Shown: piece after piece, positions 2,972-30,786 of the stretch
How positions within the stretch are numbered: the first letter of the stretch is position 1
Layout of the letters: each line of letters starts with the position of its first letter
NCBI GenBank assembly: GCA_003165335.1
Contig: PLTD01000127.1
Location: 1-64,000, forward strand
Source of the DNA: Rhodospirillales bacterium
Lineage (GTDB): Bacteria > Pseudomonadota > Alphaproteobacteria > BOG-932 > Roseiterribacteraceae
Direction: 5' to 3'
Length of the DNA: 64,000 nucleotides
Notes under the pieces: generated by a model
Database searches by the model: none
Seen by the model: the letters and a program-made list of their open reading frames with translations, nothing else
Told to the model about the DNA's origin: nothing
Position numbers and translations under genes: made by a program

Positions 2972-2976
2972 CAGTT

Positions 2977-6931: not shown

Positions 6932-6991
6932 ACATTGCTCGTCTCGGCGGGAGTCTACACGAACCGGGCAGTCGATGAATTTGCAATTATG

Positions 6992-9124: not shown

Positions 9125-9125
9125 A

Positions 9126-10376: not shown

Positions 10377-12061
10377 AACCCGGCCTCCGCGCATTCGGCC
10401 TGAGCGCCGCGATCGGCCTGATCGCGGTACTGGGGCTCGCGAGTTGCAGCCCGAAAGTCGATGCGCCGGCGACACAGGGCGGTCCGCTCGCCATGCGTCG
10501 GCTGACCGAAGCGCAATATCGCCAGACAATCGCCGATATTTTCGGTGTCGACATCAAAGTCGCCGGGCGTTTCGAACCGGACCTACGCAAGAGCGGGTTG
10601 TTGGCCGTCGGCGCCTCCGATGTTTCGGTGACCCGGGCCGGATTCGAAGATTACGATCTACTGGCGCACAGCATCGCCGCCCAGGTTGTCGATGAAAAAC
10701 ACCGGCAAACTCTCGTGCCCTGCGTGCCGGCATCAGCCAAAGCGCCGGACGCTGCCTGCGCCACCCGGTTTTTTCAAAAAGTCGGACGGCTGGTGCTGCG
10801 AAGGCCGCTGGACGCGCAAAAGGTGATGGCGATGGTCGAAATCGCCGATGCCGAGACCAAGACGTCTGGCAATTTCTATTCAGGTCTAGAATTTGTGCTG
10901 GCGGGTCTGCTCGAGGCGCCCGAGTTCCTGTTCCGCGTCGATGTGGCTGCGCCTGACACCGGTCATCCGGATAGTGTGAGGCTGGACGGCTTCTCGAAAG
11001 CCACCCGGCTGAGCTTCCTGCTTTGGGACACGACGCCCGACGACGCGTTGCTGGCGGCTGCGGAGAACGGAGAGCTGGACAACAGGGACGGGCTGACGCG
11101 GCAGGTCGATCGGATGCTGGGATCGCCGCGCCTCGACGCCGGGGTCCGGGCCTTCTTCTCCGACATGCTCGGTTTTGACGAGCTGCAGATGGTCGAGAAG
11201 GACCGGCTTCTTTACCCGAGATTCTCCAGGACGCTGGTCGCGGATGCCGAAGAACAGACTTTGCGGACGATCGCCGACCAGCTGATCGTCCAGCACGCCG
11301 ATTATCGCGACCTGTTCACGACCCGCCAAACCTTCATGACACGGACACTTGGGCTGGTCTATCGCGTGCCGGTCAGGGCTGAGCGCGGGTGGGAGCCGTT
11401 TGAGTTTCCAAAGGACGATCCGCGTGCGGGAATCCTGACGCACATCAGCTTTCTTGCGCTTCACGGTCCATCGGGCCGCAGTTCGCCGACATTGCGCGGT
11501 AAGGCGGTGCGTGAATTGCTGATGTGCCAGCATGTACCCGCCCCCCCGGGTAACGTGAGTTTCGCGTTGGTCGAGGACACGAAGAATGCTCAGTTGAAAA
11601 CGGTGCGGGACAGGTTGACGGCACACAGGGTCAATCCGGGCTGTGCCGGTTGTCACCGGATCATGGATCCGCTGGGCCTAGGTCTGGAGAATTTCGACGG
11701 GTTGGGACAATACCGCGCCGATGAGAACGGCACCCCAATCGACGCCAGCGGGGAGTTGGACGGGGCGCATTTCCAGAGTGCGGAAAGCTTGGGAAGGGCG
11801 ATGCACGACAATCCCGCGGTCGTGTCCTGCCTGGTCAATAGTGTCTACCGTTATGCAGCGGGCCGTCTGCCTCAGCCGGGCGAAAAGGAATTCCTCGCGT
11901 GGCTGCAACAGAATTTCGCCCAGGGCGGCTATCAGCTGCCGGACCTGCTCCGGCGCATCGCACTCAGCGACGCCTTCTACGCCATCTCGCCATCGATCGG
12001 CTCCAAATCGCCGAGGACGGCATCTGGCGCCTCCGATCCTCAAAGGGAGAGCAAATCATGA
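10370..12061 (+). CDS. DUF1592-type lipoprotein (DUF1587/1595/1592/1588/1585) with one CxxCH motif
   Basis: The GTG at 10370 overlaps the upstream stop by seven bases. The 563-residue product starts with a lipoprotein signal ending in the lipobox LASC (Cys26), so it should be membrane-anchored in the periplasm. The domain order is that of planctomycete-type cytochrome-like proteins: DUF1587 (RRLTEAQYRQTIADIFG, about 43-115), DUF1595 (LVLRRPLDAQKV, about 135-185), DUF1592 (TRLSFLLWDTTPDD, about 200-330), DUF1588 (HISFLALHGPSGRSSPTLRG, about 360-450) and DUF1585 at the end. A CAGCH at residues 425-429 followed by MDPLGLGLENFD is a c-type haem-like site, standard for DUF1588. The role is unknown; a redox function at the membrane is inferred. 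It is coupled to the DUF1552 gene by an ATGA overlap. Confidence 0.9.
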   Translation: MVKPGLRAFGLSAAIGLIAVLGLASCSPKVDAPATQGGPLAMRRLTEAQYRQTIADIFGVDIKVAGRFEPDLRKSGLLAVGASDVSVTRAGFEDYDLLAHSIAAQVVDEKHRQTLVPCVPASAKAPDAACATRFFQKVGRLVLRRPLDAQKVMAMVEIADAETKTSGNFYSGLEFVLAGLLEAPEFLFRVDVAAPDTGHPDSVRLDGFSKATRLSFLLWDTTPDDALLAAAENGELDNRDGLTRQVDRMLGSPRLDAGVRAFFSDMLGFDELQMVEKDRLLYPRFSRTLVADAEEQTLRTIADQLIVQHADYRDLFTTRQTFMTRTLGLVYRVPVRAERGWEPFEFPKDDPRAGILTHISFLALHGPSGRSSPTLRGKAVRELLMCQHVPAPPGNVSFALVEDTKNAQLKTVRDRLTAHRVNPGCAGCHRIMDPLGLGLENFDGLGQYRADENGTPIDASGELDGAHFQSAESLGRAMHDNPAVVSCLVNSVYRYAAGRLPQPGEKEFLAWLQQNFAQGGYQLPDLLRRIALSDAFYAISPSIGSKSPRTASGASDPQRESKS

Positions 12062-13398
12062 GCATGAGACCGAGCCGCAGAGGTGTGCTGCGCGGAATGC
12101 TGGGCGGCTCCGCCGTCACGGTCGCGCTGCCGTTTCTCGATTGCTTCCTGAACACCAACGGGACAGCGCTTGCCTCCGGCGGAGGCTTGCCGATCCGGTT
12201 CGGCACCTGGTTCTGGGGCTGCGGAATGAACCCGCAGCGCTGGGTGCCTACGAAAATGGGCCGCGATTACGACCTGCCGGCTGAACTCAAATATATCGAG
12301 CCGTTCAAGAATCAGATCAATGTGTTGAGCGGGTTCGACGTTAAACTCGACGGCAAGACCAACGCGCCGCACGTCACCGGAAATTTCGCGCTGCTGACGG
12401 GAACGACGCCGGCGTCGTTGGATAAACACGATGTGCCGACGGTCGATACGCTGATCGCCGACGTCGTCGGCCGCGATACGCGCTTCCGTTCGCTGGAAGT
12501 GACGGCGACCGGAAATCCGAAAGATACCTATAGCCGGCGCAATTCCAACAGCATCAACCCCGCAGAAGGGTCGCCGGTCGCATTCTACACGCGGATATTC
12601 GGGCCTGAATTCCAAGACCCGAACGCCACCGATTTTCGACCCGACCCGCGCGTGATGACCCGGCTGAGCGTATTGTCGCTGGTCAAGGACGATCGCGACC
12701 GGCTGGCGAAGCAGTTGGGTAGCAGTGACAAGGCGCGGCTCGACGAATATTTCACGTCCCTGCGTCAGGTCGAACAGCAGCTGCAGATGCAGCTGCAGAA
12801 ACCGCCGCCGGCGGAGGCCTGCAGGAAGCCGGAAATGCCGGCTGACATGGTTCCGGCCGGCTATCAGGTCGATCAGGTGATCACCAACCACAAGGTGATG
12901 TCAGAATTGCTGGCGATGGCGCTCGCCTGCAACCAGACCAAGGTCTTTAATATGGCCTTTTCCGACGCTCTTTCCGCTTTGCATAAATCGGGCACCACCG
13001 CCTACCACCATGGACTGACCCATACCGAATTGGCCGACCCCAAGCTGGGCTACCAGGTCGAGGCGGCTTGGTTCGTCGAGCGATCGATGGAGGCATGGGG
13101 CACATTCGTCGCAACGATGGCCGCCGTCCGCGAAGGTGAAGGGACCTTGCTGGACAACATGCTGGTCTTCGCCCATTCCGACAGTTCGGTCGCGCGCATG
13201 CATTCGATCCTCGGCGTACCGATGATGACCGCCGGCAAGGCAGGCGGGCGGATCAAGACCGGGCTGCATATCGATGGTGGCGGCGACCCGATCACACGCG
13301 TCGGGCTGACTCTTCAGCAGATCATGGGAGTCCCGGTCGAGCGCTGGGGCACGAACTCGATGGAGACGTCGGTGCCGGTCAGCGACATACTGGCATAG
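12058..13398 (+). CDS. Tat-exported DUF1552 protein
   Basis: The 446-residue protein starts at the ATG at 12058, 10-15 bases after AAAGGGAGA, overlapping the previous stop. The N-terminus RPSRRGVLRGMLGGSAVTVA is a twin-arginine signal, so it is exported folded. The body shows the DUF1552 pattern: FGTWFWGCGMNPQRWVP, INVLSGFD, HVTGNFALLTG, TVDTLIADVVG, LEVTATGNP, YHHGLTHTE and a C-terminal HSILGVPMMTAGKAGGRIKTG. DUF1552 is related to the sulfatase/alkaline-phosphatase-like DUF1501 group and is almost always encoded beside DUF1592-type genes. Its reaction is unknown. Tat export hints at a cofactor or metal inserted in the cytoplasm. Overlapping genes suggest the pair acts together. Confidence 0.9.
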   Translation: MSMRPSRRGVLRGMLGGSAVTVALPFLDCFLNTNGTALASGGGLPIRFGTWFWGCGMNPQRWVPTKMGRDYDLPAELKYIEPFKNQINVLSGFDVKLDGKTNAPHVTGNFALLTGTTPASLDKHDVPTVDTLIADVVGRDTRFRSLEVTATGNPKDTYSRRNSNSINPAEGSPVAFYTRIFGPEFQDPNATDFRPDPRVMTRLSVLSLVKDDRDRLAKQLGSSDKARLDEYFTSLRQVEQQLQMQLQKPPPAEACRKPEMPADMVPAGYQVDQVITNHKVMSELLAMALACNQTKVFNMAFSDALSALHKSGTTAYHHGLTHTELADPKLGYQVEAAWFVERSMEAWGTFVATMAAVREGEGTLLDNMLVFAHSDSSVARMHSILGVPMMTAGKAGGRIKTGLHIDGGGDPITRVGLTLQQIMGVPVERWGTNSMETSVPVSDILA

Positions 13399-13421
13399 GC
13401 GGTATTGGAGATAGCGCGGAT

Positions 13422-14222
13422 ATGAGCCGCCGTCGGTTTCTCCTGCGCGTTCTGCGCGTTTCGGGTGGCCTGATGGCTGTCATGGGACCGGCGCGGTTTG
13501 CCCGTGCGGCGGGCGGCGCAGCCGATAACGACGGCCGCGTCGCGACGGAATCGCTGCTGGTTGTCGGCGTGCAGGGGCTCGGGGGATACCTCGCAAAGCC
13601 GAAATCGGCGGGCAGGTATCCCGGGATTGTCATCATCCACGACAATCGCGGATTGGATGAGCACATTCAGAAATTTGCGCGCCGTCTTGCGGCGGAAGGG
13701 TATTTGGCGCTCGCGGTCGATTTTGGCGCCTACGCCGCCGCCACCACCGACGGCAGGACCGTGTCTGAGGCGATTGAGGCGCTGAAGCGGAGCGAGATTG
13801 TGGCGGGTTGCCGGGCGGCTGTCGCTGTGTTGGCGGCGCGGCCGGATTGCACGAAGAAGATCGGCGGCGCCGGGTTCGGCTGGGGCGGCCTCGCGCTCGG
13901 CTATCTCAGCCTGGCCGAGCCGACGCTCAGCGCCACCGTCACCTATTACGGGCGCCAGCCGCTCTACTTTCTGGTCGACGAATATAAGCTGATCAATGCC
14001 AAGATGATGTTCCACTACGCGTCGCGCGACACCAAGATCAACGAGGGCATCGTACCGTTCGGGATCGATCTGCGGGACGCGGGACGGAGCTTCGAGGTCT
14101 ATAGCTATCCGACCGTAAAACACGGCTTCGACGATGACACCGACAGTGACGCTTATGACAGGGCGGCGGCGGCCATCGCCTGGGGTAGGACGATTGAATT
14201 CTTCAAGAAGCAACTCGCTTGA
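13422..14222 (+). CDS. Exported dienelactone hydrolase-like protein lacking the usual nucleophile
   Basis: The 266-residue protein has a Tat-like N-terminus (MSRRRFLLRVLRVSGGLMAV) followed by an alanine-rich cleavage region. The fold pattern is dienelactone hydrolase: YPGIVIIHDNRGLDEHI, AAEGYLALAVDF, and a late VKHGFDDDTD with the catalytic His. In the nucleophile elbow, relatives read GFCWGG or GFCFGG; here it is GFGWGG, so the catalytic Cys is replaced by Gly. The protein may be inactive as a hydrolase or use different chemistry. It follows the DUF1552 gene by 23 bases on the same strand and probably belongs to the operon. Confidence 0.75.
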   Translation: MSRRRFLLRVLRVSGGLMAVMGPARFARAAGGAADNDGRVATESLLVVGVQGLGGYLAKPKSAGRYPGIVIIHDNRGLDEHIQKFARRLAAEGYLALAVDFGAYAAATTDGRTVSEAIEALKRSEIVAGCRAAVAVLAARPDCTKKIGGAGFGWGGLALGYLSLAEPTLSATVTYYGRQPLYFLVDEYKLINAKMMFHYASRDTKINEGIVPFGIDLRDAGRSFEVYSYPTVKHGFDDDTDSDAYDRAAAAIAWGRTIEFFKKQLA

Positions 14223-14262
14223 TGATGCGGAACAACACCGACTTTATCGGGAGGACGGCGGC

Positions 14263-15009
14263 ATGCGTGTGACCGCGGTTTTAAGCACCGTCTGGATTCT
14301 CATGACGGTCGCGAGCGGCAATAGCTACGGGCAGGGGGGCCAGGCCGCATTGCCCGCCGAAGCGACCGTGCAAAAATCCGCCACGGGACCGGTCTTTGCA
14401 GATGCGAAGGGATTAACGCTCTATACGTTCGATCGCGATGCGGCCGGCAAGTCGGCCTGCTCGGCTGTCTGCGCCCGCAATTGGCTACCCTTGCGCGTAC
14501 CCGATCTTGCCAACGACGCTGTCGGTGATTGGGCGACCGTACATCGCGACGATGGAAGCCGGCAATGGGCCTACCAAGGCAAACCGGTTTACACCTTTGC
14601 CGGCGATACCAAGGCGGGAGAGGTGACGGGGAACGGGACCGACGGCACTTGGCACACCGCCATGGTGCCGATGCCGCCCGTTCCGGCGACCCCCGGGGGG
14701 GTGAGCGCCCGAACTGTCGATATTGGGCGGGTGCTGGGCGATGCGAACGGTCTCACGCTCTATACCTATGACCGCGATACCGAACCGGGCAGGTCCGCTT
14801 GCGTCGATTCCTGCGCGGAAGCGTGGCCGCCGCTAATCGCCGACGGGGGTGCGGCATCCGCGCCCGATTGGACAATGATCGTCCGCGCCGACGGCTCGAA
14901 ACAATGGGCCTTTAAAGGCAAGCCGCTCTACAGATTCTCAGGCGACGAGAAGCCGGGTGAAACCGCCGGCGACGGCATCGGCACTATCTGGCACGCGCTG
15001 AAGATATGA
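14263..15009 (+). CDS. Secreted COG4315-type repeat protein (two copies)
   Basis: The 248-residue protein has a signal peptide (VTAVLSTVWILMTVASGNSYGQ) and two copies of a roughly 100-residue unit. The unit is that of the 'lipoprotein with Yx(FWY)xxD motif' family: LTLYTFDRD and LTLYTYDRD, each followed by a pair of cysteines (SACSAVCARNW, SACVDSCAEAW), WAYQGKPVYTF or WAFKGKPLYRF, and a final G-T-WH. The paired cysteines probably form a disulfide. The molecular function of the family is unknown; members often sit beside periplasmic redox or copper genes. It has no lipobox Cys. The ATG at 14263 is preceded by GGGAGGA. It is 40 bases after the DLH-like gene, so probably the same transcript. Confidence 0.8.
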   Translation: MRVTAVLSTVWILMTVASGNSYGQGGQAALPAEATVQKSATGPVFADAKGLTLYTFDRDAAGKSACSAVCARNWLPLRVPDLANDAVGDWATVHRDDGSRQWAYQGKPVYTFAGDTKAGEVTGNGTDGTWHTAMVPMPPVPATPGGVSARTVDIGRVLGDANGLTLYTYDRDTEPGRSACVDSCAEAWPPLIADGGAASAPDWTMIVRADGSKQWAFKGKPLYRFSGDEKPGETAGDGIGTIWHALKI

Positions 15010-15100
15010 CGACGCTGAATTGCTGCCGGGACGCCGCAGGTGCGCCCGCGATATTCGTCTCGTTTCAACCAGACGCAGTTCAATTTTATAGGAGGCTATC

Positions 15101-15613
15101 GTGAACTTTGTGGATCGGACTTGCCTAGCCGCACTGTCGATAGTCTTCGCCACGTGGAGCGTAGGTATCAGCGCCGCGGCTGACGAACAAGCGACGACCA
15201 AGCCTAATCTGCCGGCAAGCTTCGGGCTCATATTCGCGTCCGAACAGGTGCGGGACCTCGACCGTTCGCTGGCCTTCTATACGCAGGTTTTCGGGATGCG
15301 CGTGCTGAACGCATATAGCAGCAACGATTTTGAGGAGAGGCAACTCGTCTTTCCCGACACCGCCGTTGCCGGTGGTATCAATATTGTCCAGCGCGGTACC
15401 AAAACCGAACCCTTCCAGGGCGACAGGCCTGTCCACCTCGTCATACGGGTTCATGACATTCACGCGACTTGCGATCGCGTTGGGGCGGCAGGCGGAAAGG
15501 TTACGCGCGCTCCGGCCGATGCGGCGAATTCTGGGGTCTGGGTGGCGATGTTGGATGATCCCGATGGCCACCGGCTGGAGGTCGTTCAATACGAACAACG
15601 ACCGCATCACTAG
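15101..15613 (+). CDS. Exported VOC/glyoxalase-family protein
   Basis: The 170-residue protein starts at the GTG at 15101, five bases after AGGAGG. It opens with a signal peptide (CLAALSIVFATWSVGISAAA). The mature part is one vicinal-oxygen-chelate domain: FGLIFASEQVRDLDRSLAFYTQVFGMRV, NIVQRGTK, HLVIRVHDI, and the C-terminal strand VWVAMLDDPDGHRLEVVQYE with the metal-ligand Glu. VOC domains bind a divalent metal and act in glyoxalases, dioxygenases and resistance proteins; the substrate here is unknown. An exported VOC protein is uncommon and fits the exported nature of the genes before it. It is the last gene before the convergent AbiE module, 91 bases after the COG4315 gene. Confidence 0.8.
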   Translation: MNFVDRTCLAALSIVFATWSVGISAAADEQATTKPNLPASFGLIFASEQVRDLDRSLAFYTQVFGMRVLNAYSSNDFEERQLVFPDTAVAGGINIVQRGTKTEPFQGDRPVHLVIRVHDIHATCDRVGAAGGKVTRAPADAANSGVWVAMLDDPDGHRLEVVQYEQRPHH

Positions 15614-15727
15614 AGCTTGAAATACGCCGTTCAGATCAAACGATCGAGTGCGGTCAGATTGGGGAAGAGGCCGATAAATCGAACGTCCGCTTTTGGCGCA
15701 AAGCGGAAGCTGCAATTCCTCGTGGCT

Positions 15728-16641
15728 TTATTTCAAAACCCGGTCAAGATCTTTGACCACGGACTGGTATTTTGCGGGTTGTTCTGCGCGCAGCCGCTCC
15801 AAGTTGATCAGCTTCCATCGAACTGCCGGAAGATCGGCGATATTGTCCAAGCCAAGTGCTGACCAATCCGGCTGCAACTCATGAAACGACATGAGGAAGG
15901 CGCGTACGCGATCGTCGGCTAGCCGGTGCTGGATTTCGGCAACCAACTGCCGCCGCGCCTCCAGGAGATCGTCGAGGGAAGCCGGTTCGATGGTCATTCC
16001 AACGAACTCTTGTTCGAAGGTTTGGGCAATATCCTTGAACGCAGGTCTGAGCACTTCGTGCGCCGGCCGTCCATGACTGATGATATAAACGAGGAATGCC
16101 CGGAACAGCGCCGCATCTATCCCCTCGTTCGCAAAAAGGTAACGCACGTCGAAAAGGTCCCGCGGATGCTGCCGATCGAGCGCCGCGACGAGCTTGCCGG
16201 CATAGAGGTCAGCAAATGAGACGAGTTGCGTTTCAGCAAAGCCGAACGTGTCTTCGACCGTTGCGCTGACACTGCGGATCTCCGGAGGGAAAACGACGCC
16301 ACGCAAAACGGGTGTTACTTCGATCTTGATCTGCGTGAATCCTTGGCGAACGACGATTCTGGTGCCGTCGTGGCTAGCGTTCAGATTGACCTGGATTCGA
16401 CGTGGCCCCCGGCGATGGCTGCACCAATGCGTGCGAGCCCCGCCCTGATCGCAGCGAGGGACATTTCTCGGTCTGCCACTGGAAGATAAACCAGGTCGAT
16501 ATCGACGGAGAGGCGAGGAAGGTCGCGGATGAATAGATTGATCGCGGTCCCGCCCTTAAGTGCAAAGCAGGTCTCGGCCGCGACGTAGGGAAGGACCCGG
16601 ACAAGCAACGCGACCTGCGCGCGAAACTTATTAGCCGGCAT
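15728..16641 (-). pseudogene. AbiEii-type nucleotidyltransferase toxin, frameshifted
   Basis: The gene starts at the ATG at 16641, inside the end of the AbiEi gene (11-base overlap), as is typical for AbiE. The first 86 codons hold the nucleotidyltransferase core: ETCFALKGGTAINLFIRD and RLSVDIDLVYLP with the Asp pair. The frame then stops at about 16396. One frame over the protein continues without a break as VNLNASHDGTRIVV, then IEVTPVLRGVVFPP, VSFADLYAGKLVAALDRQ, HPRDLFDVRYL and a helical tail to 15728. A single missing G near 16396-16402 explains both parts. AbiEii transfers nucleotides to tRNA in studied systems and is held in check by AbiEi. As sequenced the toxin is inactive. Confidence 0.8.
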
Positions 16642-17485
16642 GATCGCCGCCATCGTCCTCGAACATTTCGCCCGGCAAAGTGATCTGATAGCGCGCGTCG
16701 AGGCGTCCGCCCGGCACCAGCTGGCGCTTGCCCTTCCCGAGGTCGAGCGCAACAGTATCCAGGTGTTTGCGCCAGGTATGGTGATGGCGATCAGCATACC
16801 AGAGGAATACGCGCCTGACTTTCAAGCTTTTGCATTCTTGCAAAAGCTTGCCGAGCAGTCTTGGCCGCAGATTGGTGAGGCCCTGCATAGCCATGTCGAC
16901 TTGGTGGAATGTCTCGTGCTTCGGGAGTTCATCGATCATCTCCATGATCGCGCGCTCCGGCGATGCCACCCTCAGCGGCCAATCCCAGGGCGCATCCGGC
17001 TCCATGTCCGACGTTGCGTCCTCGGTTCGGCCAGACACAAGATCGTAGCGCCGCCCTTCGACGCCGGTCTCTGAGCCGCCAAAAAGCCTCGTTGAGTGCA
17101 GGTCAAAGCGAGCGGTTGCCGATAATCGAACGAGCCATGCTGGCACTCCCCCACCATATATGTGAATAACCGCTGGACCCGCGGCGCTCACATAGTGGGC
17201 ATACCCGGCGAGTTCGAGCGCCGTCGCTCCTCCAACATGGACAGGGTGCCCCATGATCCGTTGCAGCGACAGGGCGACGACATCCCAGCGAAGGGGTGCG
17301 CCAGGGTGAGGCAGCGGCCGGCGGTAAACGCGGGGCGCCACCCGTTGCAGCCATCCAGATGTCGCATAGTCGCGGATCGATGAGCGTGATAGGCCCTGCG
17401 CCTGCAACCAAGTGCTATCCGCTATAAAGCCGGCCGGCAGCTGGCTTAGGACATGGTTCAGCCTTTGCATCCTTTGTGCGCTCAT
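16631..17485 (-). CDS. AbiEi-family antitoxin (type IV TA)
   Basis: The 284-residue protein matches AbiEi antitoxins. It has an N-terminal winged-helix region (LSQLPAGFIADSTWLQAQGLS, RSSIRDYATSGWLQRVAPRV), then the C-terminal antitoxin domain with HVGGATALELAGYAHYV, LPGE-type turns and VASPERAIMEMIDE. In characterised AbiE systems this protein represses the operon through inverted repeats upstream and neutralises the AbiEii nucleotidyltransferase, protecting against phage. The start at 17485 lies 22 bases from a dyad at 17507-17527. It appears intact while its partner is broken, which is the viable direction of decay. Confidence 0.85.
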   Translation of the reverse strand: MSAQRMQRLNHVLSQLPAGFIADSTWLQAQGLSRSSIRDYATSGWLQRVAPRVYRRPLPHPGAPLRWDVVALSLQRIMGHPVHVGGATALELAGYAHYVSAAGPAVIHIYGGGVPAWLVRLSATARFDLHSTRLFGGSETGVEGRRYDLVSGRTEDATSDMEPDAPWDWPLRVASPERAIMEMIDELPKHETFHQVDMAMQGLTNLRPRLLGKLLQECKSLKVRRVFLWYADRHHHTWRKHLDTVALDLGKGKRQLVPGGRLDARYQITLPGEMFEDDGGDHAG

Positions 17486-18207: not shown

Positions 18208-18459
18208 ATGCCCGAGACAGACAGATTCCTGCGTATGCATTCCGTGCTGGAGCGCGTCGGCTTCAGCCGAACCACGCTCTACCGGAAAATGCAGGAAGGA
18301 ACGTTTCCGCGTCAGGTGCAGATCAGCGACTATTGTCGCGGCTGGCGCGAGTTCGCGATTAACCGCTGGATGGCGGATCCCGCATCCTACAGGGAACGCG
18401 ATGGCGCGGCCGACCGAGGGGACCCGCCTGACAATGTCGCGCTGCGCCGCGCCGATTGA
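18208..18459 (+). CDS. AlpA-family regulator
   Basis: The 83-residue protein has the AlpA/MerR-like helix-turn-helix pattern: RFLRMHSVLERVGFSRTTLYRKM, then EGTFPRQVQIS and WREFAINRWMADP. AlpA proteins from P4-like prophages and islands activate integrase or excision genes and can serve as recombination directionality factors. The ATG at 18208 is chosen because the domain starts there; the frame is open further upstream without homology. Its last 73 bases overlap the 3' end of the integrase gene on the other strand. Its position beside the integrase supports a role in excision control. Confidence 0.8.
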   Translation: MPETDRFLRMHSVLERVGFSRTTLYRKMQEGTFPRQVQISDYCRGWREFAINRWMADPASYRERDGAADRGDPPDNVALRRAD

Positions 18460-19721
18460 TCCGTCGGTCCAGGGGATGAACCATCTTTCCCCGCGATAAT
18501 CGCGCCTAAGCGGCTTCCCCAAGTGTCCAGAGCGAGCTTCTTTTCAACGTCGTATCCATAACGATCATAGACGGCAGTCACATTGGGTTCGGCGTGATTG
18601 AGGATTTTTCCGACTACAAGGCGGTAGATCCCCATGCTGGTCATATGACTGGCGGCCGTACGGCGCAGATCATGAGGTGTCGCGTCGGTCAATCCCAGCG
18701 TGGCGAGATTCTTCCGAAAGGCATGGTCAACCGCCGGTCCGGTAATCGGCGATTTTTCGTGGGGCGAAGGGAACAGCCAACGAGACGGTTGAACGTCGGC
18801 TGGCAATCCGGCCCTGGTGCGCCGTTTGTTGATGCCGTCGACGCGGTCTCGTTCGGCTTGCCGAATTTCTTTCAACAGCGAAATTGCAAGCGGCGACAAG
18901 GGAACCCGGTGCGGCATCCTGTTTTTTGCTTTGGCGGCCGGAATTGTCCAAACATTCCCTTCCGTGACATCGAATTCCGCCCATTCGGCGGCGATGACTT
19001 CGCCTTTCCGCTGGGCGGTCGCGAGCTGTAACTTAAGGGCGAGTGCTACCTGCCGTGACATTTTCAGGTCCGGGCTTTCTAACCCCTTCCAAAGCTCGCA
19101 GACTTCCGCGGCGCTCAGAACACGGTCCCGGCGATTTTCCTCCGAGGGAGCTCCAACATTGGCGCAAGGGTTTGCGGACACGATGTCGCGCGATACCGCC
19201 CAAGAGAACATCTTGCGAATTGCAGCTAATGTCCGGTTAGCCTGGATCGGGGCGCCACGGCTAACAATGCCGTCCAACAGGGCAACCACGTCGCGGCGGA
19301 CGATCGCCTTGGCCTTCTTGCGGCCCCAAACCGGCACTACATCTTTTTTTAAGATGCGCTCGTCCTCGCCAGCACTGCGCTTGCGCGGTTGCGCCCATAG
19401 CCGCAGATAGTCGTCAACCAAATCTGAAACGCTCTCCGCAATCCGCTCTTGCCGGTTTTTTTCGACATTCGCAGCGCCGGGGTCGGTGCCGTCCCGCAGA
19501 GCCTTCTTGGCGTTCCCCAAGGCGATGTTTGCGTCAGCCAGGCTCATCGCGGGATAAGACCCCAGTGTCATCCGGCGCGCTCTGTCCTCGAAGCGATACA
19601 TCCACACCCACGACTTGATGCCACGCGGCGTCACACGCATCCCGAACCCGTCACCGTCCCACACCTCATACCGTTTCGTCTTGCAACGAAGAGCGGCAAT
19701 CGACTTGTCAGTGAGCTTCAT
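18387..19721 (-). CDS. P4-type tyrosine integrase
   Basis: The 444-residue protein starts at the ATG at 19721 with the typical DUF4102 arm-binding domain (MKLTDKSIAALRCKTKRYEV, GFGMRVTPRGIKSWVWMYRF). It continues with a SAM-like core-binding domain and the catalytic domain: Arg in ATAQRKGE, HDLRR, the later His in LNHAEPN, and Tyr in YDRYGY. All catalytic residues look present, so it may be active. It would integrate the element at the 3' end of a tRNA gene, and a tRNA-Thr 3' fragment lies 174 bases upstream of its start. The C-terminus has a low-complexity Ser/Pro/Arg tail that runs into the antisense of the AlpA gene; the native end may have been lost. Confidence 0.9.
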   Translation of the reverse strand: MKLTDKSIAALRCKTKRYEVWDGDGFGMRVTPRGIKSWVWMYRFEDRARRMTLGSYPAMSLADANIALGNAKKALRDGTDPGAANVEKNRQERIAESVSDLVDDYLRLWAQPRKRSAGEDERILKKDVVPVWGRKKAKAIVRRDVVALLDGIVSRGAPIQANRTLAAIRKMFSWAVSRDIVSANPCANVGAPSEENRRDRVLSAAEVCELWKGLESPDLKMSRQVALALKLQLATAQRKGEVIAAEWAEFDVTEGNVWTIPAAKAKNRMPHRVPLSPLAISLLKEIRQAERDRVDGINKRRTRAGLPADVQPSRWLFPSPHEKSPITGPAVDHAFRKNLATLGLTDATPHDLRRTAASHMTSMGIYRLVVGKILNHAEPNVTAVYDRYGYDVEKKLALDTWGSRLGAIIAGKDGSSPGPTDQSARRSATLSGGSPRSAAPSRSL

Positions 19722-19894
19722 GGGAGGTCCTCTGTCCTTGCTACCCCAAGGGTAATTTGGGGTGGCAAAATCTGATTCACTGTATGAAACTACCTGAAAC
19801 AGGGTAGCATAGGAAGTGTTCAAAAACAGCAGGAAGTCTGGAATTCTTCTTGTTTCAGACGGTGCCTCTAGGTATCAGAAAATCTCAATATTGT

Positions 19895-19943
19895 CCGATT
19901 TGTAATCGGTAGGTCTGCGGTTCAAATCCGCGTTTCGGCACCA
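19895..19943 (+). other. 3' half of a tRNA-Thr(TGT) gene: island attachment site
   Basis: The bases read as a tRNA 3' half: anticodon arm CCGA-TTTGTAA-TCGG with anticodon TGT, variable loop, T arm with TTCAAAT, acceptor strand TTTCGGC, discriminator A and CCA. The matching 5' acceptor GCCGAAA and the D arm are missing upstream, where the sequence becomes AT-rich and unrelated. P4-type integrases use exactly this part of a tRNA gene and duplicate it on integration. With the integrase to the left, the island should extend leftward and the complete tRNA should lie beyond the window start. Confidence 0.8.
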
Positions 19944-19967
19944 TTTCTCCTCACGATCTCTCTTGCG

Positions 19968-20665
19968 TCATCGTGCGATAGGACTCTGCGCATAAAGCTG
20001 CCGGTCAGGCTTAGGATAGGCTTCGAAACCGCTGGCCGATTGTTCGATCGTGGCCTGGACGATCGAACCGACCAAAGCATAGCCCTTGTCGGTCAAATGG
20101 ATTCCGTCCTGAAAGTACTCCGGGTTCTTATAGGCCCCGTTTGCGCCGAGTGCCGGGTTGGCGGCGACATCGATCAGCCCGTCGGCGAAATCGGAGCAAA
20201 AGGCGCGGATCATCGCGTTATAGGGGTTCTTGTCCTGGTCGTCTTCGACACGGGAGATCATCGTCATCACAAAGATCTTGAAACCCAGCCGGCGTTCGTT
20301 CCGGGAGAATTGCCTCAGGACCGAAAATATCTGCTGCGGGGTCTCGTGGTGGCCGGCCAGGTCGTTCGTCCCAGCCCAGACGACCGCCACGTTCAGGCCC
20401 GATCCGCGCAGCGGGTTCAGCGTCCGGTCGGCATCTGCCGCTATCTCGGTCAACGTCTTTCCGCTGACGCCTATATTGAAGCTGTTCCAGGCTTTGCCAT
20501 GCCAGGGCGTCAGATTGACGTAGTGCGTGTAGGGATGGGAGCCCAGAAGCCCGGTGGTCAGCGAATCGCCGACATAGACGATCGTTGGCGCCGGTACGGG
20601 CCCGCCCCCGCCGGGAGGGCGGCGAGGGCGAAGGCAATCGTCAAAATGCGGGAATATTTCGTCAT
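19968..20665 (-). pseudogene. SGNH/GDSL hydrolase, frameshifted after the signal peptide
   Basis: The signal peptide frame starts at the ATG at 20665 (MTKYSRILTIAFALAALPAG). The catalytic frame continues one base off with PAPTIVYVGDSLTTG (block I, nucleophile Ser), NIGVSGKTL (block II), VVWAGTNDLA (block III) and DGIHLTDKGY (block V, Asp-x-x-His). All active-site blocks are present. One extra G in the GGGGG run near 20605-20609 would join the frames, so this may be a sequencing error in a homopolymer rather than a dead gene. SGNH enzymes are periplasmic esterases or lipases. It is the first chromosomal gene right of the attachment site. Confidence 0.75.
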
Positions 20666-20747
20666 TCCGCCGGCCAACCTGTTCCCCCTGTCTGCGGCGA
20701 AACAGATTAAACGAACGGCCTCCCGACGCCAGTCTTGATCCTGCGGC

Positions 20748-21704
20748 CTATTCCGCCGCAGTTGCCAGGATGGCGGCGGCGTTCGACGCGGCGAGGGCTT
20801 TCTTCACCTTGTCATGCTCATAGGTTTCGCCCGGCTTGCCGAACAAGACCACGATCTTCTGCCAAAGGCCGGGTGCGCGGATCAGGTCCACCAGCAGAGG
20901 TTTGAACTCGAATGCCCAAATCTTGAACGGGTCATAGGTGTTCAGTTCTTTGGTGATGCCGTATTTGATCGGCTCTTCGTTCGGCATCATGAAGGTTCCC
21001 AGCAGCCGATCCCAGATCACCGTCATCCCACCATAGTTCTTGTCGATATATTGCGGGTTGCAGGCGTGATGCAGGCCGTGATTGGTGGGCGAGCAAAGCA
21101 CCTCGTCGAACCAACCCATCCGGCCGATCCGCTGTGTGTGGATGAAAGTCTGGAAGGAAATGCCCTTCGCCAACAGAAGGAACGCAATCGGCCCGAAGCC
21201 CAGCATCGCCAGCGGAATTGCGGTCAAGGCCTTATAGGCCCAGGTGAATGGCGTCAGCCGCCACGAGGTAAAGAACTCATAATCGCGCGAACTGTGATGG
21301 ATCGAGTGATCCGCCCAAAACACCCGCACCTCATGTCCCAGCCGGTGGTAGATGTAATGCCAGAATTCCGCCGCTAGAAAATAAAGCGGCAGGGTGTAGA
21401 CATTGAACGGGATGTGCCAGTGGCTGATCCGCGACCCTAAATAGAGCGCAGCCAATATCCCGGCATTTCCGACGACGCCGTCGATCAGAATCGCATGCAC
21501 AAACAGGACGAAATTCGCCGGGGCGTCGCGCGACACCAGCTTGCGGGGCTTATCGCTTTTGCGGTGCTCCCACCAACCGGCGATCGACAACAGAATTTCG
21601 GCTGAAATGAGAACAGTCAGAATCGAGGCTGTTCCCTGCGCCCAATATTTCAAGAATTCCGCGACCTCCGGTTCCCCGATCGCTGTGATTTGCGCCCAGT
21701 CCAT
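20748..21704 (-). CDS. Sterol desaturase/fatty acid hydroxylase family membrane enzyme
   Basis: The 318-residue membrane protein has the three histidine boxes of the family: HYIYHRLGH (His116, 120, 124), HSIHH (133-137) and NHGLHH (209-213). They bind a di-iron centre that hydroxylates or desaturates lipids with O2. Several hydrophobic segments flank them (LFVHAILIDGVVGNAGILAA, IPLAMLGFGPIAFLLLAKG). Bacterial members are highly diverse and the substrate cannot be deduced. The C-terminal 60 residues after the boxes are hydrophilic. A 22-bp palindrome sits 63 bases upstream of the start, so expression is probably controlled by a dimeric repressor. Confidence 0.9.
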   Translation of the reverse strand: MDWAQITAIGEPEVAEFLKYWAQGTASILTVLISAEILLSIAGWWEHRKSDKPRKLVSRDAPANFVLFVHAILIDGVVGNAGILAALYLGSRISHWHIPFNVYTLPLYFLAAEFWHYIYHRLGHEVRVFWADHSIHHSSRDYEFFTSWRLTPFTWAYKALTAIPLAMLGFGPIAFLLLAKGISFQTFIHTQRIGRMGWFDEVLCSPTNHGLHHACNPQYIDKNYGGMTVIWDRLLGTFMMPNEEPIKYGITKELNTYDPFKIWAFEFKPLLVDLIRAPGLWQKIVVLFGKPGETYEHDKVKKALAASNAAAILATAAE

Positions 21705-21788: not shown

Positions 21789-21929
21789 CGTGTCAATGAT
21801 CACACATGTCGCAGTCACATTTGCCGCAGGCAGCCTGCAATGACCACGAAACCCAGTTCCAACTGTCGACTTATTGCCCTGCGGCTGCGCATAATCCGGA
21901 AGTGATTCCGACAGGATTGCGAAACCTCC

Positions 21930-22535
21930 GTGAACATTCCCACCTCGCCGATCGTCGCCGCCAAGGCGCTGTTTGCCAATCAGGCGGCCTATGCTGCAAA
22001 TCCCGATCCTGCGGCGCTCGCGGTTAATAAGATTGCCCTTATTCTGGCCTGGAACGGGCCGCTCTATCCCGTCTATGTCGTGTTTCTGCTCGGCCGCGAC
22101 GCATTGCCCTGGTCGCTACTGACGTTGCCGATCAGCCCATTTTTCTATGCCATCCCCTGGTTGTCGCGGCAAAGCTCGCGGGCCGGGCGCATCGTCATGC
22201 CGCTGATCGGGGCGACTAATACGATCTGGTGCATGAAGCTGTTCGGTGCTCCGTCCGGTGTCGGTACTTTTCTTTACCCCTGCATCATGCTGGCTGCTCT
22301 TCTGTACCGGCAGAGCGAGCGCGGGCTGATGCTGCCTCTGGTCGGGCTGATGGTTGCGCTGGAGTTTTTGCCCGATTCGGTCATCGGCGCGCCGATCATG
22401 ACGCTTACGGCCGTGGAATCCGCCCATCTAGCCGCTTTGAATGAGGGCAGCGTCGCTTTCCTGCTCGCCTTCATCGTCTTTCAATTGGTCAATATTGCCC
22501 GCGACCCCGAAGCCAATCTTGGGTCAGCGCTCTAA
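21930..22535 (+). CDS. Multi-pass membrane protein of unknown function
   Basis: The 201-residue protein (GTG start at 21930) has about five hydrophobic segments: LILAWNGPLYPVYVVFLLG, LLTLPISPFFYAIPWL, VGTFLYPCIMLAALLY, LMLPLVGLMVALEFL and SVAFLLAFIVFQLV. It would lie in the inner membrane. I do not recognise the family. The start has no strong ribosome binding site, but the reading matches the conserved-looking N-terminus. It shares an intergenic region with the sterol desaturase-family gene and the palindrome. It is followed after 39 bases by the M3 peptidase gene. Confidence 0.65.
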   Translation: MNIPTSPIVAAKALFANQAAYAANPDPAALAVNKIALILAWNGPLYPVYVVFLLGRDALPWSLLTLPISPFFYAIPWLSRQSSRAGRIVMPLIGATNTIWCMKLFGAPSGVGTFLYPCIMLAALLYRQSERGLMLPLVGLMVALEFLPDSVIGAPIMTLTAVESAHLAALNEGSVAFLLAFIVFQLVNIARDPEANLGSAL

Positions 22536-22574
22536 ATGCCCATATCGCCTGCGGGCGAACATCGGAGACTGACT

Positions 22575-24401
22575 ATGGTTAGAATCGGCGCGTATCTGGA
22601 TCAGGCGGGTCAAACTGCAGCAGGGACGGCGGAGGCGCTCCCGAACTGGGACCTCACCGATCTTTACCCCGCGCCCGATTCTTCCGAACTGGCGGCCGAT
22701 CTCGACCGTGCAGCCGCGGCGGCGAAGGATTTCGCCGCTACCTATCAAGGCAAGATTGCCGGCCTCAGCGGCAAAAAACTGGCGGAAGCGATCAAGGCCT
22801 ATGAGGGCCTGGACGAGCTTCTCTCGAAGGCGATGAGCTATGCCGGGCTGGTCTATGCCGGAGACAATGAAGACCCTGAGATCGGCAAATTTTATCAGGG
22901 CATCACCGAGCGCGTGAACGGCATCACCGCCGATCTCATCTTCTTTACGCTGGAATTGAACCGGATTGAGGAATTCGATCTGAAGCAAAAGCTTACCGAC
23001 CCGGCTTTGTCGCATTACGCGCCCTGGATCGCCACAGCGCGGTTGTTCCGCCCGCATATTCTGTCCGACGAAGCCGAACGGCTCCTGCACGAACGTCATG
23101 TTACCGGGGCAGGGGCTTGGTGCCGACTTTTCGATCAGACGATCGCGGCGATGCGGTTTGACGTGTCGGGAGTAGAACTACCGGTAAGCGATGCGCTGAA
23201 CCTGCTCTCGGACCCCGACCGCGCCAAGCGCAGGTCTGCCGGCGAGGCGATCGGTGCTGGTTTCGACAAGCAGATCCGAACTTACGCACTCATTACTTCG
23301 ACCCTGGCCAAGGACAAGCAGATCGACGACAAGTGGCGCAATTATGCGCGGCCTGTGTCGTACCGTAACCTGTCCAACCAGATAGAGGATGCGGTCGTCG
23401 ATGCGCTGGCCACTGCGGTCAAGGCCTCATATGGCAATCTTTCGCATCGCTATTACCGTCTGAAGGCGCGCTGGCTGAACCCCGAAGCCTCAGAGCCGAT
23501 GCTGGATTATTTCGATCGCAATGCGCCCTTGCCCGGCGACCCGGACCGGCATTTCAGCTGGGCCGAGGCACGCGGCCTGGTGCTCGAGGCCTACGGAGCC
23601 TTCTCGCCACGTATGGCAGCCGTCGGACAGCGATTCTTCGATAACCCCTGGATCGATGCGCCGGTCCGCCCAGGCAAGCAGTCAGGGGCCTTCGCCCATC
23701 CGGTGGTGCCCAGCGTGCACCCCTATCTGCTGCTGAACTATCATGGCAGGGCGCGCGACGTGATGACCTTGGCGCACGAACTGGGCCACGGCGTGCATCA
23801 GGTGCTGGCGGGACCGCAAGGTCATCTGATGTCCAACACCCCGCTGACCCTGGCAGAGACAGCCAGCGTATTCGGCGAGATGCTGACTTTTCGCGCCTTG
23901 CTGGCGCGGACCGAGAACCCGGCCGAACGGCGCTTTCTGCTGGCCAGCAAGGTCGAAGACATGCTGAACACTGTTGTGCGTCAGACCGCCTTTTATGATT
24001 TCGAAACGCGCGTTCACGCGGCGCGGCGCGACGGGGAATTGACGGCAGACCAACTGGGAGAAATCTGGCTCGCAGTACAGCGCGAAAGCCTGGGGCCGGC
24101 GCTACGCTTCGATGAGGGATATCGCCATTATTGGGCCTATATCCCGCATTTCGTCCATACACCCTTCTATGTTTATGCCTATGCCTTCGGCGACTGCCTG
24201 GTGAACGCGCTTTACGCGGTTTACCAACAGGGCGATTCCGGCTTTGCGGAACGGTATCTGGATATGCTGGCCGCGGGCGGCACCAAAACTCATCACGAGC
24301 TTTTGGCGCCGTTCGCGCTCGATGCCGCCGATCCCGATTTCTGGCACAAGGGGCTCGGCATAATCGGCGGCTTCATCGACGAGTTGGAGCGGCTCGGCTA
24401 A
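22575..24401 (+). CDS. pepF: M3-family oligoendopeptidase F
   Basis: The 608-residue protein matches oligoendopeptidase F in length. It has the N-terminal helical region (LPNWDLTDLYPAPDSSEL), the zinc motif HELGH (residues 401-405) in VMTLAHELGHGVHQVL, the third ligand Glu in the following LAETASVFGEM helix, and a C-terminal YIPHFVHTPFYVYAYAFGD segment typical of PepF. The enzyme cleaves short peptides in the cytoplasm. The ATG at 22575 is seven bases after GGAG; an upstream in-frame ATG at 22536 has no ribosome binding site. Confidence 0.93.
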   Translation: MVRIGAYLDQAGQTAAGTAEALPNWDLTDLYPAPDSSELAADLDRAAAAAKDFAATYQGKIAGLSGKKLAEAIKAYEGLDELLSKAMSYAGLVYAGDNEDPEIGKFYQGITERVNGITADLIFFTLELNRIEEFDLKQKLTDPALSHYAPWIATARLFRPHILSDEAERLLHERHVTGAGAWCRLFDQTIAAMRFDVSGVELPVSDALNLLSDPDRAKRRSAGEAIGAGFDKQIRTYALITSTLAKDKQIDDKWRNYARPVSYRNLSNQIEDAVVDALATAVKASYGNLSHRYYRLKARWLNPEASEPMLDYFDRNAPLPGDPDRHFSWAEARGLVLEAYGAFSPRMAAVGQRFFDNPWIDAPVRPGKQSGAFAHPVVPSVHPYLLLNYHGRARDVMTLAHELGHGVHQVLAGPQGHLMSNTPLTLAETASVFGEMLTFRALLARTENPAERRFLLASKVEDMLNTVVRQTAFYDFETRVHAARRDGELTADQLGEIWLAVQRESLGPALRFDEGYRHYWAYIPHFVHTPFYVYAYAFGDCLVNALYAVYQQGDSGFAERYLDMLAAGGTKTHHELLAPFALDAADPDFWHKGLGIIGGFIDELERLG

Positions 24402-24429
24402 AGGCCCAGCCACCCCCGCTCCATCCGGA

Positions 24430-24729
24430 TTATTGCGCCTTGGCAGGCGTGTTGCGGAAGTTGTCGCTCTGCGTCTTCCACTCTGCGGAAACCTGATCGT
24501 ACTCGTCCTTGCCGCTTTTGATTTCGTCGGAAAGGCAGTGCAGATAGGTGCTCATCGCCTGAGCATAGGGCGTCAGCTTTGCCTGGGCCGCCTTCATCTG
24601 GTCGTCGCTGGCGGTTTTGCCATCGGGAACGGAAAATTTGGCCGGCCGCGCGCAGGACGCGGCAGACGCAAAATTGGACGCGGAAAGGACCGTTACCGCA
24701 GCAAGCGCACACATCGAAATAAACTTCAT
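24430..24729 (-). CDS. Small secreted protein of unknown function
   Basis: The 99-residue protein starts at the ATG at 24729, after AGGAGACAAGA. It has a signal peptide (MKFISMCALAAVTVLSASNF, cleavage after ASA). The mature part of about 75 residues has two cysteines (SCARPAK and LHCLSDE) that can form a disulfide, and a helical body (KAAQAKLTPYAQAMSTYLHC). Many sphingomonad-like genomes carry similar small periplasmic proteins without known function. It converges with the M3 peptidase gene and lies downstream of rpoN with a 111-base gap. Confidence 0.75.
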   Translation of the reverse strand: MKFISMCALAAVTVLSASNFASAASCARPAKFSVPDGKTASDDQMKAAQAKLTPYAQAMSTYLHCLSDEIKSGKDEYDQVSAEWKTQSDNFRNTPAKAQ

Positions 24730-24840
24730 TCTTGTCTCCTCATCGGGGAAAAAGGCGGTGGACCCTACCCGAAACTCACACAATGTCACACTCTAATCAT
24801 GGTAGGATTCAGGTCGTGAAGGGTAAAAACGTTCCCCGTG

Positions 24841-26388
24841 TCAGCGGGTCGCAGCCGCGGAGAAGTTTTTTTGCCGTCGGCGCTGGACCGATGAGGGCAA
24901 TCCAAGCTGCTCGCGGTACTTGGCTATGGTCCGCCGAGCGATATCGATGCCTTCGGCCTGCAACTGGTCTACCAGAGTGTCGTCAGACAGGATGGCACCC
25001 CGATCTTCGGCGTCTATCAGGGCCTTCAGCCGGTGCCGAATTGACTCGGCCGCATGGGATTCGCCGCCGTCGGCGCGCGCGATCGCGGTCGAAAAGAAAT
25101 ATTTCAACTCGAACATTCCGCGTGGCGTCGACATGAATTTGTTGCTGGTCACGCGGCTGACCGTGCTTTCATGCATGCCGATGATCTCGGCGATGTTGCG
25201 CAATACCAACGGTCGCAGGCGCGAGACCCCGTGCCGGAAAAATTCCTCCTGTTGATTGACGATCTCGCTCGCAACTTTGAGGATCGTCTGTGCGCGCTGA
25301 TCCAGCGACCGAATCAACCAGTTTGCGGCGTTCAGCTTCTCTGACAGATACTCGCGGTCCGCGGCGCTGCGGCAGGTCTGGCTGACCTCAGCATAATAGC
25401 GTCGATTAACCAGCACGCGGGGCAGGGTATCAGAGTTAAGTTCGATGCTCCAGCCGCCGTCGCGCGACGGGCGCATCAATATGTCCGGGATGATGGTCTG
25501 GGCTGCGGAGCCACCCTCGAATTTGTCGCCCGGCTTGGGATCCAGTGCGCGGATCTCGGCGATCATGTCCGCAAGGTCGGCTGAATCGACACCGCACAGT
25601 CGCGTCAGATCGTTGAAGCGACGATCAGCCAGCAGGCTCAAATTGCGGCACAGCGTTTCCATCGCCGGGTCGAAACGATCGCGGGCCTTCAACTGAATCG
25701 TCAGACACTCACTCAGGCTTCGCGCCATTACGCCGGCAGGATCGAACTGCTGCATCCGCCTCAGCACGCTTTCTACCGCCGCTGTTTCGATGCCCAGCAT
25801 CGACGCAACCTGTTCAGTCGCGGCCTCGCCTTCCGCCAGATAGCCGGAGGACTCCACGGCTTCGATTAAAGCGGCGCCGATCAGACGCTCCTTCGGGTCC
25901 TCGAATTCGGTATTCAACTGTTCCAAAAGATGTTCGCGCAGTGTGGCGTCGCGCGACATGCGATCGGCGATATCAGACGCATCACCGTCGAAATTGCCGC
26001 CCGATCCCGATGCCGCAAAGCTTTGCGGGTCGCCGCTGCCCTGCGGGGCGTCGCGGTCGCCGGTTACCTCGACCCCATCGACGATATCGTGGGACTGATC
26101 GCCCAGTGCTCCGGCGTCGATCCGCGTAGCTTGATCGTCGGTTGGCGCTGGCCCTTCATCGAAATCTGAGGCGCCGACCCGGTCCTGGCCGATTTCAGTA
26201 TTGTCCATCGGCCGATCGGAGTCGTCCTGACCGCCGTCGTCGAGCAGCGGATTCTGCTGCATCTCCTGATCGACGAACTCACTGATCTCTAGATTGTTGA
26301 GTTGCAGAAGTTTGATCGCCTGCTGCAATTGCGGCGTCATGACGAGCGTCTGCGACTGCCGCAGATCCAGTCTTTGAACGAGGCTCAT
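24841..26388 (-). CDS. rpoN: RNA polymerase sigma-54 factor
   Basis: The 515-residue protein has the activator-interacting N-terminus (SLVQRLDLRQSQTLVMTPQL, LQLNNLEISEFV) and an acidic, variable linker at about 50-140. The core-binding domain follows (FDPAGVMARSLSECLTIQLK), then a DNA-binding region (IGMHESTVSRVTSNKF) and the RpoN box ARRTIAKYREQ at about 484-494. It directs transcription of activator-dependent promoters. It follows lptB on the same strand as in many alphaproteobacteria, with a 212-base gap that may hold its own promoter. The hpf and ptsN genes that usually follow rpoN are not present downstream. Confidence 0.97.
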   Translation of the reverse strand: MSLVQRLDLRQSQTLVMTPQLQQAIKLLQLNNLEISEFVDQEMQQNPLLDDGGQDDSDRPMDNTEIGQDRVGASDFDEGPAPTDDQATRIDAGALGDQSHDIVDGVEVTGDRDAPQGSGDPQSFAASGSGGNFDGDASDIADRMSRDATLREHLLEQLNTEFEDPKERLIGAALIEAVESSGYLAEGEAATEQVASMLGIETAAVESVLRRMQQFDPAGVMARSLSECLTIQLKARDRFDPAMETLCRNLSLLADRRFNDLTRLCGVDSADLADMIAEIRALDPKPGDKFEGGSAAQTIIPDILMRPSRDGGWSIELNSDTLPRVLVNRRYYAEVSQTCRSAADREYLSEKLNAANWLIRSLDQRAQTILKVASEIVNQQEEFFRHGVSRLRPLVLRNIAEIIGMHESTVSRVTSNKFMSTPRGMFELKYFFSTAIARADGGESHAAESIRHRLKALIDAEDRGAILSDDTLVDQLQAEGIDIARRTIAKYREQLGLPSSVQRRRQKNFSAAATR

Positions 26389-26600
26389 CGCGTCGCCGCC
26401 GGTCTAACGCGCCGTCGAGACTGCCGGCGCCGCGGCAGTCGGTCCCTGGGGAAGCGCCTTCAAGGTGGATAGAGTTGGGGCCATTGTGTCCTGATGTCAG
26501 CGCAAAGCGATTGCGCGCCGACATTTGTGACCGGCAGGAGTGTAGCAGCAGAGCGGTTTCGGTTCAGCCCAAGGGGCGGTCTGCGATCGTGCTCTTTTGC

Positions 26601-27386
26601 CTACAAACTGAATCTCTCACCGAGATAGACTCGACGCACGTCTTGATGTGCCACGATTTCCGATGGCCGTCCATCCATCAGGACCGATCCGTCATGCAAG
26701 ATATATGCCCGATCCACAATATCCAGCGTTTCACGCACGTTATGATCGGTTATCAGCACGCCGATACCCCGTTTGCGGAGGTGTGAAATCAGCTCGCGAA
26801 TTTCACCGATGGCGATCGGGTCGATGCCCGCGAGCGGTTCGTCCAGCAGCATGAACTGCGGGCGCGAGGCCAGGGCGCGGGCGATTTCGACGCGGCGTCG
26901 CTCGCCCCCGGACAGCGCCAAGGCCGGCGTGCGGCGAAGATGCGAAATCGAAAATTCCGCCAGCAGGTCGTCCAGCATCGCTTCGCGCATATCGCGTTCC
27001 GGCTCGACCACTTCGAGTACCGCACGGATATTCTCCTCAACGGTCAGGCCGCGAAAGATCGAAGCTTCCTGGGGTAGATAGCCGATACCCATCCGCGACC
27101 GCCGATACATGGGCAGATGCGTGATATCGACTCCATCCATCTCGATGGTTCCGGTGTCGGCGTTGATCAATCCGGTGATGATATAAAAACAGGTGGTCTT
27201 ACCCGCGCCATTGGGGCCAAGAAGCCCGACAGCCTCGCCGCGTTGCACCGACACGGTCACGTCGCGCAGAACCGGCCGGCGTTTGAACTGCTTTCCCAGA
27301 TGCTTTGCGACCAGTCCCGAATTCGCCGAAATCAGGCGCGGCCCGACGGATTGGAGGTCGGTGCCGATAGTTGATTCCAGGGCCAT
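26601..27386 (-). CDS. lptB: LPS export ABC transporter ATP-binding protein LptB
   Basis: The 261-residue protein has Walker A GPNGAGKT (residues 57-64), the Q-loop in YLPQEASIF, the signature LSGGERRR (158-165), Walker B FMLLDEP (178-184) and the H-loop in VLITDHNVRE, which is the LptB hallmark. It powers extraction of LPS from the inner membrane with LptF/LptG. The N-terminus is about 20 residues longer than in E. coli. Its ATG shares one base with the lptA stop, indicating translational coupling. Confidence 0.97.
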   Translation of the reverse strand: MALESTIGTDLQSVGPRLISANSGLVAKHLGKQFKRRPVLRDVTVSVQRGEAVGLLGPNGAGKTTCFYIITGLINADTGTIEMDGVDITHLPMYRRSRMGIGYLPQEASIFRGLTVEENIRAVLEVVEPERDMREAMLDDLLAEFSISHLRRTPALALSGGERRRVEIARALASRPQFMLLDEPLAGIDPIAIGEIRELISHLRKRGIGVLITDHNVRETLDIVDRAYILHDGSVLMDGRPSEIVAHQDVRRVYLGERFSL

Positions 27387-29133: not shown

Positions 29134-29151
29134 GGAAGCTAAGCTTTGTCC

Positions 29152-29781: not shown

Positions 29782-29835
29782 CGCCCGCCGGGAAAATAAA
29801 GCGCCCCGGCGGAACCCGGCATTCCGCTACGCGAC

Positions 29836-29922
29836 TGGTGCCCAGGAAAAGACTCGAACTTTCAAGGCCTTTCGGCCACTGGTACCTGAAACCAGCGCGT
29901 CTACCAATTCCGCCACCTGGGC
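29836..29922 (-). tRNA. tRNA-Leu (anticodon CAG)
   Basis: On the minus strand, the acceptor strands GCCCAGG and CCTGGGC pair fully, followed by A and an encoded CCA (complement at 29836-29838). The D arm has the type-II pattern TGGCGGAATTGGTAGACGCG. The anticodon arm CTGGT-TTCAGGT-ACCAG gives anticodon CAG. The long variable arm TGGCCGAAAGGCCTT and the T loop GTTCGAGTC are present. The length of 87 nt including CCA suits a class II tRNA-Leu. It reads CUG. Confidence 0.97.
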
Positions 29923-30002
29923 AGCGCGGAGGCGTCTCTTATCCCCCGCGGCAAGGCTTTGTCAACTTGGGTTTCGTCGAAAGACTTGCTAATCAGGCCG
30001 CA

Positions 30003-30782: not shown

Positions 30783-30786
30783 GCCG

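Follow-up and report, generated by a model that had tools for sequence, protein, structure and literature searches.

A mobile island with a P4-type integrase, very probably inserted at tRNA-Thr(CGT), in a Rhodospirillales bacterium

Gene content of the locus

We analysed a window of 64,000 nucleotides, bases 1-64000 of contig C264 in a draft assembly of 265 contigs (95.6% complete) from a Rhodospirillales bacterium. Its features are as follows.

1..15620: presumed cargo (Pfam/NCBIfam), namely a KdpD-like kinase piece, a P-loop kinase with a P9-like putative leader RNA, a BlaI/BlaR1-like pair, Abhydrolase_10, a DUF1592/DUF1552 pair, a dienelactone hydrolase, Lipoprotein_15 repeats and a glyoxalase
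15728..16797, minus strand: AbiEii-type toxin gene, its coding sequence divided over two frames
16631..17485, minus strand: AbiEi-type antitoxin regulator (cargo), whole; Pfam AbiEi_3, PADLOC AbiEi, 289 bits
18208..18459, plus strand: AlpA-like regulator, whose gene converges with the integrase gene and overlaps its end; Phage_AlpA, 50.3 bits
18387..19721, minus strand: P4-type tyrosine integrase gene that looks intact and is read towards the island interior; Pfam Arm-DNA-bind_3, Phage_int_M, Phage_integrase
19739-19746 (minus), 19760-19767 (plus) and 19802-19809 (plus): repeats GGGT(A/G)GCA, likely arm-type sites
19895..19945, plus strand: putative attR core, the 3′ half of tRNA-Thr(CGT) through CCA plus two shared T; 49/51 with C185:376-426
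19968..21704, minus strand: SGNH hydrolase and fatty-acid hydroxylase, right of attR; Pfam Lipase_GDSL_2, FA_hydroxylase
21887..52114: conserved chromosomal flank, from a hypothetical gene and an M3 peptidase to rpoN and onward; colinear with contig C270 of a sister species (G002)

The integrase gene has its stop end at 18387 and its likely ATG at 19721. Its product shows the make-up of a P4-type enzyme, with Arm-DNA-bind_3 joined to core-binding and catalytic domains, and its PDB matches include the arm domain of a CP4-like integrase. Residues R238, K266, H350, R353, H376 and Y385 do not vary when the protein is aligned with three relatives; we take this R-K-H-R-H-Y set to be the six residues usually held catalytic in tyrosine recombinases. 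With all three P4-type domains and Phage_AlpA recovered in Pfam, the proposal of the initial annotation that a P4-type integrase and an AlpA gene lie beside a tRNA fragment is borne out. A prophage was considered and rejected, as no close viral integrase was found (best 31% identity, 28 viral loci); a Pfam scan of 19 distinct window proteins, a subset of the open reading frames, gave no phage structural domains. Elsewhere in the same genome, contig C56 (L269; 2012-2260, 2721-4190) holds an AlpA gene 80% identical to that of the window, adjoining a gene that by eye is serine-recombinase-like and a tRNA-Arg(CCG), possibly another island.

A tRNA 3′ half and its parent gene

The stretch at 19895-19943 (CCGATTTGTAATCGGTAGGTCTGCGGTTCAAATCCGCGTTTCGGCACCA) is a tRNA 3′ half that begins with the anticodon stem and ends in CCA. 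It is preceded by neither a D-arm nor an acceptor 5′ strand, just as had been described at the outset, and no complete tRNA is called at this position by ARAGORN or by the Rfam tRNA model. A differently spliced tRNA, which the initial annotation had named as a finding that would speak against its reading, and an intron-split one were rejected because the 5′ half is absent near the fragment.

We compared the fragment with the tRNA genes of the genome, in which the tRNA model has 39 matches. It agrees at 47 of 49 positions with the only complete tRNA-Thr(CGT), on contig C185, the identity extending two bases beyond CCA, and at 36 of 49 with the tRNA-Thr(TGT) on C145, a different gene; a related 3′ half on C142 reaches 34 of 49. 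A search with the first 45 bases of the fragment, allowing up to three mismatches, found two places only in the 5.19-Mb genome (the window and C185), and its reversed-pattern control found none. By chance, about 4e-19 matches would be expected for 49 bases with up to two mismatches if equal base frequencies are assumed. The 5′ half of tRNA-Thr(CGT) has a single occurrence in the genome, on C185. At both mismatches the complete gene has C and the fragment T, one being the first anticodon base (the wobble position) and the other lying in the T arm. Since both differences run from C to T and one of them falls on the first anticodon base, 'TGT' is to be read as an altered CGT. Judged by these matches, the parent gene of the fragment is tRNA-Thr(CGT), and its TGT anticodon stems from a wobble C-to-T change that probably arose after insertion. 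The anticodon letters had thus been read correctly in the initial annotation, but the target that it derived from them, tRNA-Thr(TGT), gives way to tRNA-Thr(CGT), and the complete GCCGAAA-type tRNA-Thr(TGT) with the same ending bases that it had expected was not found elsewhere in the genome, where the complete match is the C185 gene.

Two tRNA-Thr(TGT)-type 3′ halves (L135; 1-53 and 1067-1115) lie about 1 kb apart on C142, around outer-membrane-like open reading frames (by eye), a possible second integration spot at a real tRNA-Thr(TGT).

The probable other end of the island

On C185 the complete tRNA-Thr(CGT) ends 377 bases before the contig end. Upstream of it lie HemD-, mitofilin-, HemY- and rhomboid-like genes (named by eye); at nine complete-tRNA loci from other genomes, all four of these genes were present in three, three of them in two and none in four. 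The stretch downstream of the tRNA contains AGGGTAGCAAATGGGGTAGCAAAA and a 22-base double repeat, GGGTAGCAAATGGGGTAGCAAA. With up to three mismatches, the double repeat was found in five of ten genomes, at a single place per genome. In the genome itself and in the sister species this place follows tRNA-Thr(CGT); in three others (G196, G118 and G011) it adjoins integrase genes. Its reversed-pattern control was found in none of the ten. Arm-type repeats (GGGTAGCA) occur beside the window integrase, beside its closest relatives and downstream of the C185 tRNA. The motif GGGT(A/G)GCA also lies in the interval from integrase to fragment at L102, L103 and, as one copy, L104, and it recurs after the tRNA in the sister species; we take these repeats to be the likely arm-type sites of the window integrase. 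Given how close to the end of C185 the tRNA lies, and that arm-type repeats like those at the window integrase follow it, C185 very probably carries the other end of the island.

No second tRNA-Thr(CGT)-like piece of significance was found within the 64 kb, so the window holds no left border. Because the window starts at contig base 1, the island runs off the contig, in line with the earlier expectation that it continues past base 1. The island thus spans at least 19.9 kb in the window and about 0.38 kb on C185. The G+C content was not distinct as a border marker.

Relatives of the integrase

Across 385 class-level genomes, the search returned 29 non-self loci with integrase relatives, a count of returned loci and not of every match. 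By pattern scan, 19 of the 29 carry a tRNA 3′ half no more than 700 bases from where the integrase gene starts, oriented as in the window and directed away from the integrase, and in none of those 19 loci did ARAGORN call a complete tRNA; the scan found no tRNA fragment in the other 10. The 700-base threshold and the pattern were picked after 15 loci (the first 11 and a further 4) had been read individually. Among those, targets vary by eye, with Thr(CGT) three times and also Lys, Pro and Met. At least three relatives thus have Thr(CGT) fragments (L103, whose integrase is 61% identical to that of the window, L107 and L111; anticodons by eye), and these begin at or in the anticodon arm. The recurrence of 3′ halves without a complete tRNA near the integrase argues that this type of integrase sits at the displaced fragment and not at the rebuilt tRNA. 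This shared geometry, together with the fragment and the P4-type integrase, upholds the view that the window contains the right end of a tRNA-integrated island.

The sister species and the right flank

The sister species, of the same genus, has an identical tRNA-Thr(CGT) (75/75) with nearly the same downstream arm, and on another contig, C270, a tRNA-Thr 3′ fragment reading CGT, after which comes the flank known from the window. Eight colinear blocks at 72-84% identity link window 21887-52114 to C270, and the common flank starts only near 21887. No colinear counterpart of window 1-19894 was found in that genome; its matches there are scattered, being mostly to the DUF1592/DUF1552 genes, a pair present there in repeated copies, at about 64-69% identity, with short pieces of up to 88% on separate contigs. 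In the sister species, the interval from fragment to flank lacks the SGNH hydrolase and fatty-acid hydroxylase genes, and none of 80 loci showed either of them near the M3 gene; 19968-21704 may be chromosome or an older tandem insert. C270 itself has tRNA 3′ pieces at 1142-1191 and, weakly, near 2446-2476, which bracket an AraC-type gene (by eye). The second short piece and the AraC-type gene ahead of the flank suggest that this spot may have been used by insertions more than once.

We looked for an empty site among 59 genomes searched for the tRNA and at 80 M3 loci, and found no junction of the tRNA with the right flank; nor was a complete tRNA-Thr found at the 80 M3 loci from named genomes, within the stretch fetched. 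Two same-family genomes keep the rhomboid-tRNA-Thr(CGT) arrangement with other genes to the right of it, and in both the rpoN-M3 block lies elsewhere, about 210 kb off in G003. The earlier statement that everything left of 19943 is island DNA is therefore supported in part: the lack of a colinear 1-19894 in the sister species speaks for it, while no empty site was found and the sister species lacks the SGNH gene at this position. In G003, an insert lies directly after an intact tRNA-Thr(CGT) (L078, about 10100-12953), with PLD-like and DNA-methylase-like genes by eye; it is absent in G004, and no tRNA repeat was detected.

A model for the insertion and its alternatives

It is very likely that an island with a P4-type integrase was inserted at the single tRNA-Thr(CGT), with attL on C185 and attR at window 19895-19945. 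In this model, the integrase would recombine the island attP with the anticodon-arm region of tRNA-Thr(CGT), which serves as attB. The element's own tRNA 3′ half would rebuild a working tRNA at attL, and the host's original 3′ half would be displaced to attR, where it adjoins the integrase. C185 and C264 would hold opposite ends of a single insertion, and cargo would make up what lies to the left of 18.2 kb. Strand exchange presumably takes place in the anticodon loop: the first base of the anticodon stem is also the first of the shared core, as in the class with anticodon-loop crossover, the crossover position here being a prediction. Should the 7-base overlap coincide with the anticodon loop, the C/T difference between attL and attR would fall inside it and should hinder excision.

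The rival reading that deserves most weight, though we judge it less likely than not, is an old, composite or tandem insertion, in which successive islands used this tRNA and the chromosomal border lies near 21.9 kb and not at 19943. The two tRNA 3′ pieces around the AraC-type gene in the sister species would fit it, as would the SGNH and fatty-acid hydroxylase genes that occupy this interval in the window and that lie near M3 in none of the 80 loci; against this, a second tRNA piece was not seen between 21704 and 21887, and the sister species could just as simply have lost the two genes. We consider it unlikely that C185 and the window are ends of two separate insertions of the same integrase type whose partners were lost in assembly. 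The incompleteness and fragmentation of the assembly, with the ends on different contigs, leave room for such an arrangement, but the genome has only one tRNA-Thr(CGT) and one 5′ half of it, and both ends recur in the sister species.

The anticodon of the fragment invites two further readings, both highly improbable. The TGT could come from the attP of the element, so that integration and excision in the anticodon loop would swap the host threonine tRNA between CGT and TGT; if true, a mobile element would be editing decoding when it moves. Slighter still are the chances that the fragment is the 3′ half of tRNA-Thr(TGT) and that the island sits in that gene, for although its letters do read TGT, C145 and C142 match it far less well than tRNA-Thr(CGT) does, and the fragments of the sister species, L103, L107 and L111 read CGT. 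Insertion at tRNA-Thr(CGT) remains the preferred reading. One altered base in a displaced fragment can thus give a false idea of the tRNA that was used.

Comparison with known systems

The window island is an ordinary tRNA-integrated mobile island. Figures given for Islander list 3′ fragments in 3760 of 3919 islands and anticodon-centred sites in 2083, and the same source describes a displaced 3′ half with a tRNA rebuilt by the element for many islands (PMC4383910). What Islander looks for is found here as a tDNA piece that reaches the 3′ end and is incomplete as a tRNA, a cognate complete tDNA (tRNA-Thr(CGT) on C185) and an integrase gene inside the island. The likeness to its tRNA islands extends to the tyrosine integrase and to the regenerated tRNA with a displaced 3′ fragment; in Islander, however, tDNA and fragment lie on one replicon, in the same orientation and 2-200 kb apart, whereas the ends of the window island are on different contigs, C185 and C264. 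The anticodon loop and stem are said to suit a 7-base overlap and the core-site layout (PMC8371274). According to a review, int often adjoins the tRNA gene in islands (PMC2704930). P4/CP4-57-type islands share with the window an Arm-DNA-bind_3 integrase with a neighbouring AlpA gene, but differ in that the window integrase adjoins the displaced fragment and not the rebuilt tRNA, a layout that recurs across its relatives. Islands of Sinorhizobium meliloti likewise concern an alphaproteobacterial tRNA-Thr, as far as the title of a conference paper cited in PMC11476347 tells. For the window island, the target is now fixed as tRNA-Thr(CGT), and a probable other end on another contig and likely arm-type sites can be given.

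Cargo genes

Beside the whole AbiEi-type gene, the AbiEii match spans only profile positions 103-289 of 290, with the C-terminal part at 15728-16306 and an N-terminal-like part within 16381-16797 in another frame (by eye); from its sequence, this toxin gene is probably broken. An Rfam P9 match at 3495-3572 on the plus strand (59.1 bits, cut-off 43) ends 43 bases before the P-loop kinase reading frame (3616-4314). A terminator-like hairpin closes the element, which for that reason resembles a leader or attenuator more than a free sRNA; the phrase 'sRNA P9' was not found in a literature search. P9 matches were found in 8 of 289 class genomes, three above the cut-off. At three loci (L273, L274 and L275) P9 stands immediately upstream, on the same strand, of a P-loop kinase-like gene (by eye), and these genes gave no tblastn match to the kinase of the window. 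The DUF1592/DUF1588 and DUF1552 pair at 10373-13398 has paralogues on C80, C140, C44, C4, C214 and C263 of the same genome and further copies in G002 and G001, and is a lineage-specific expansion.
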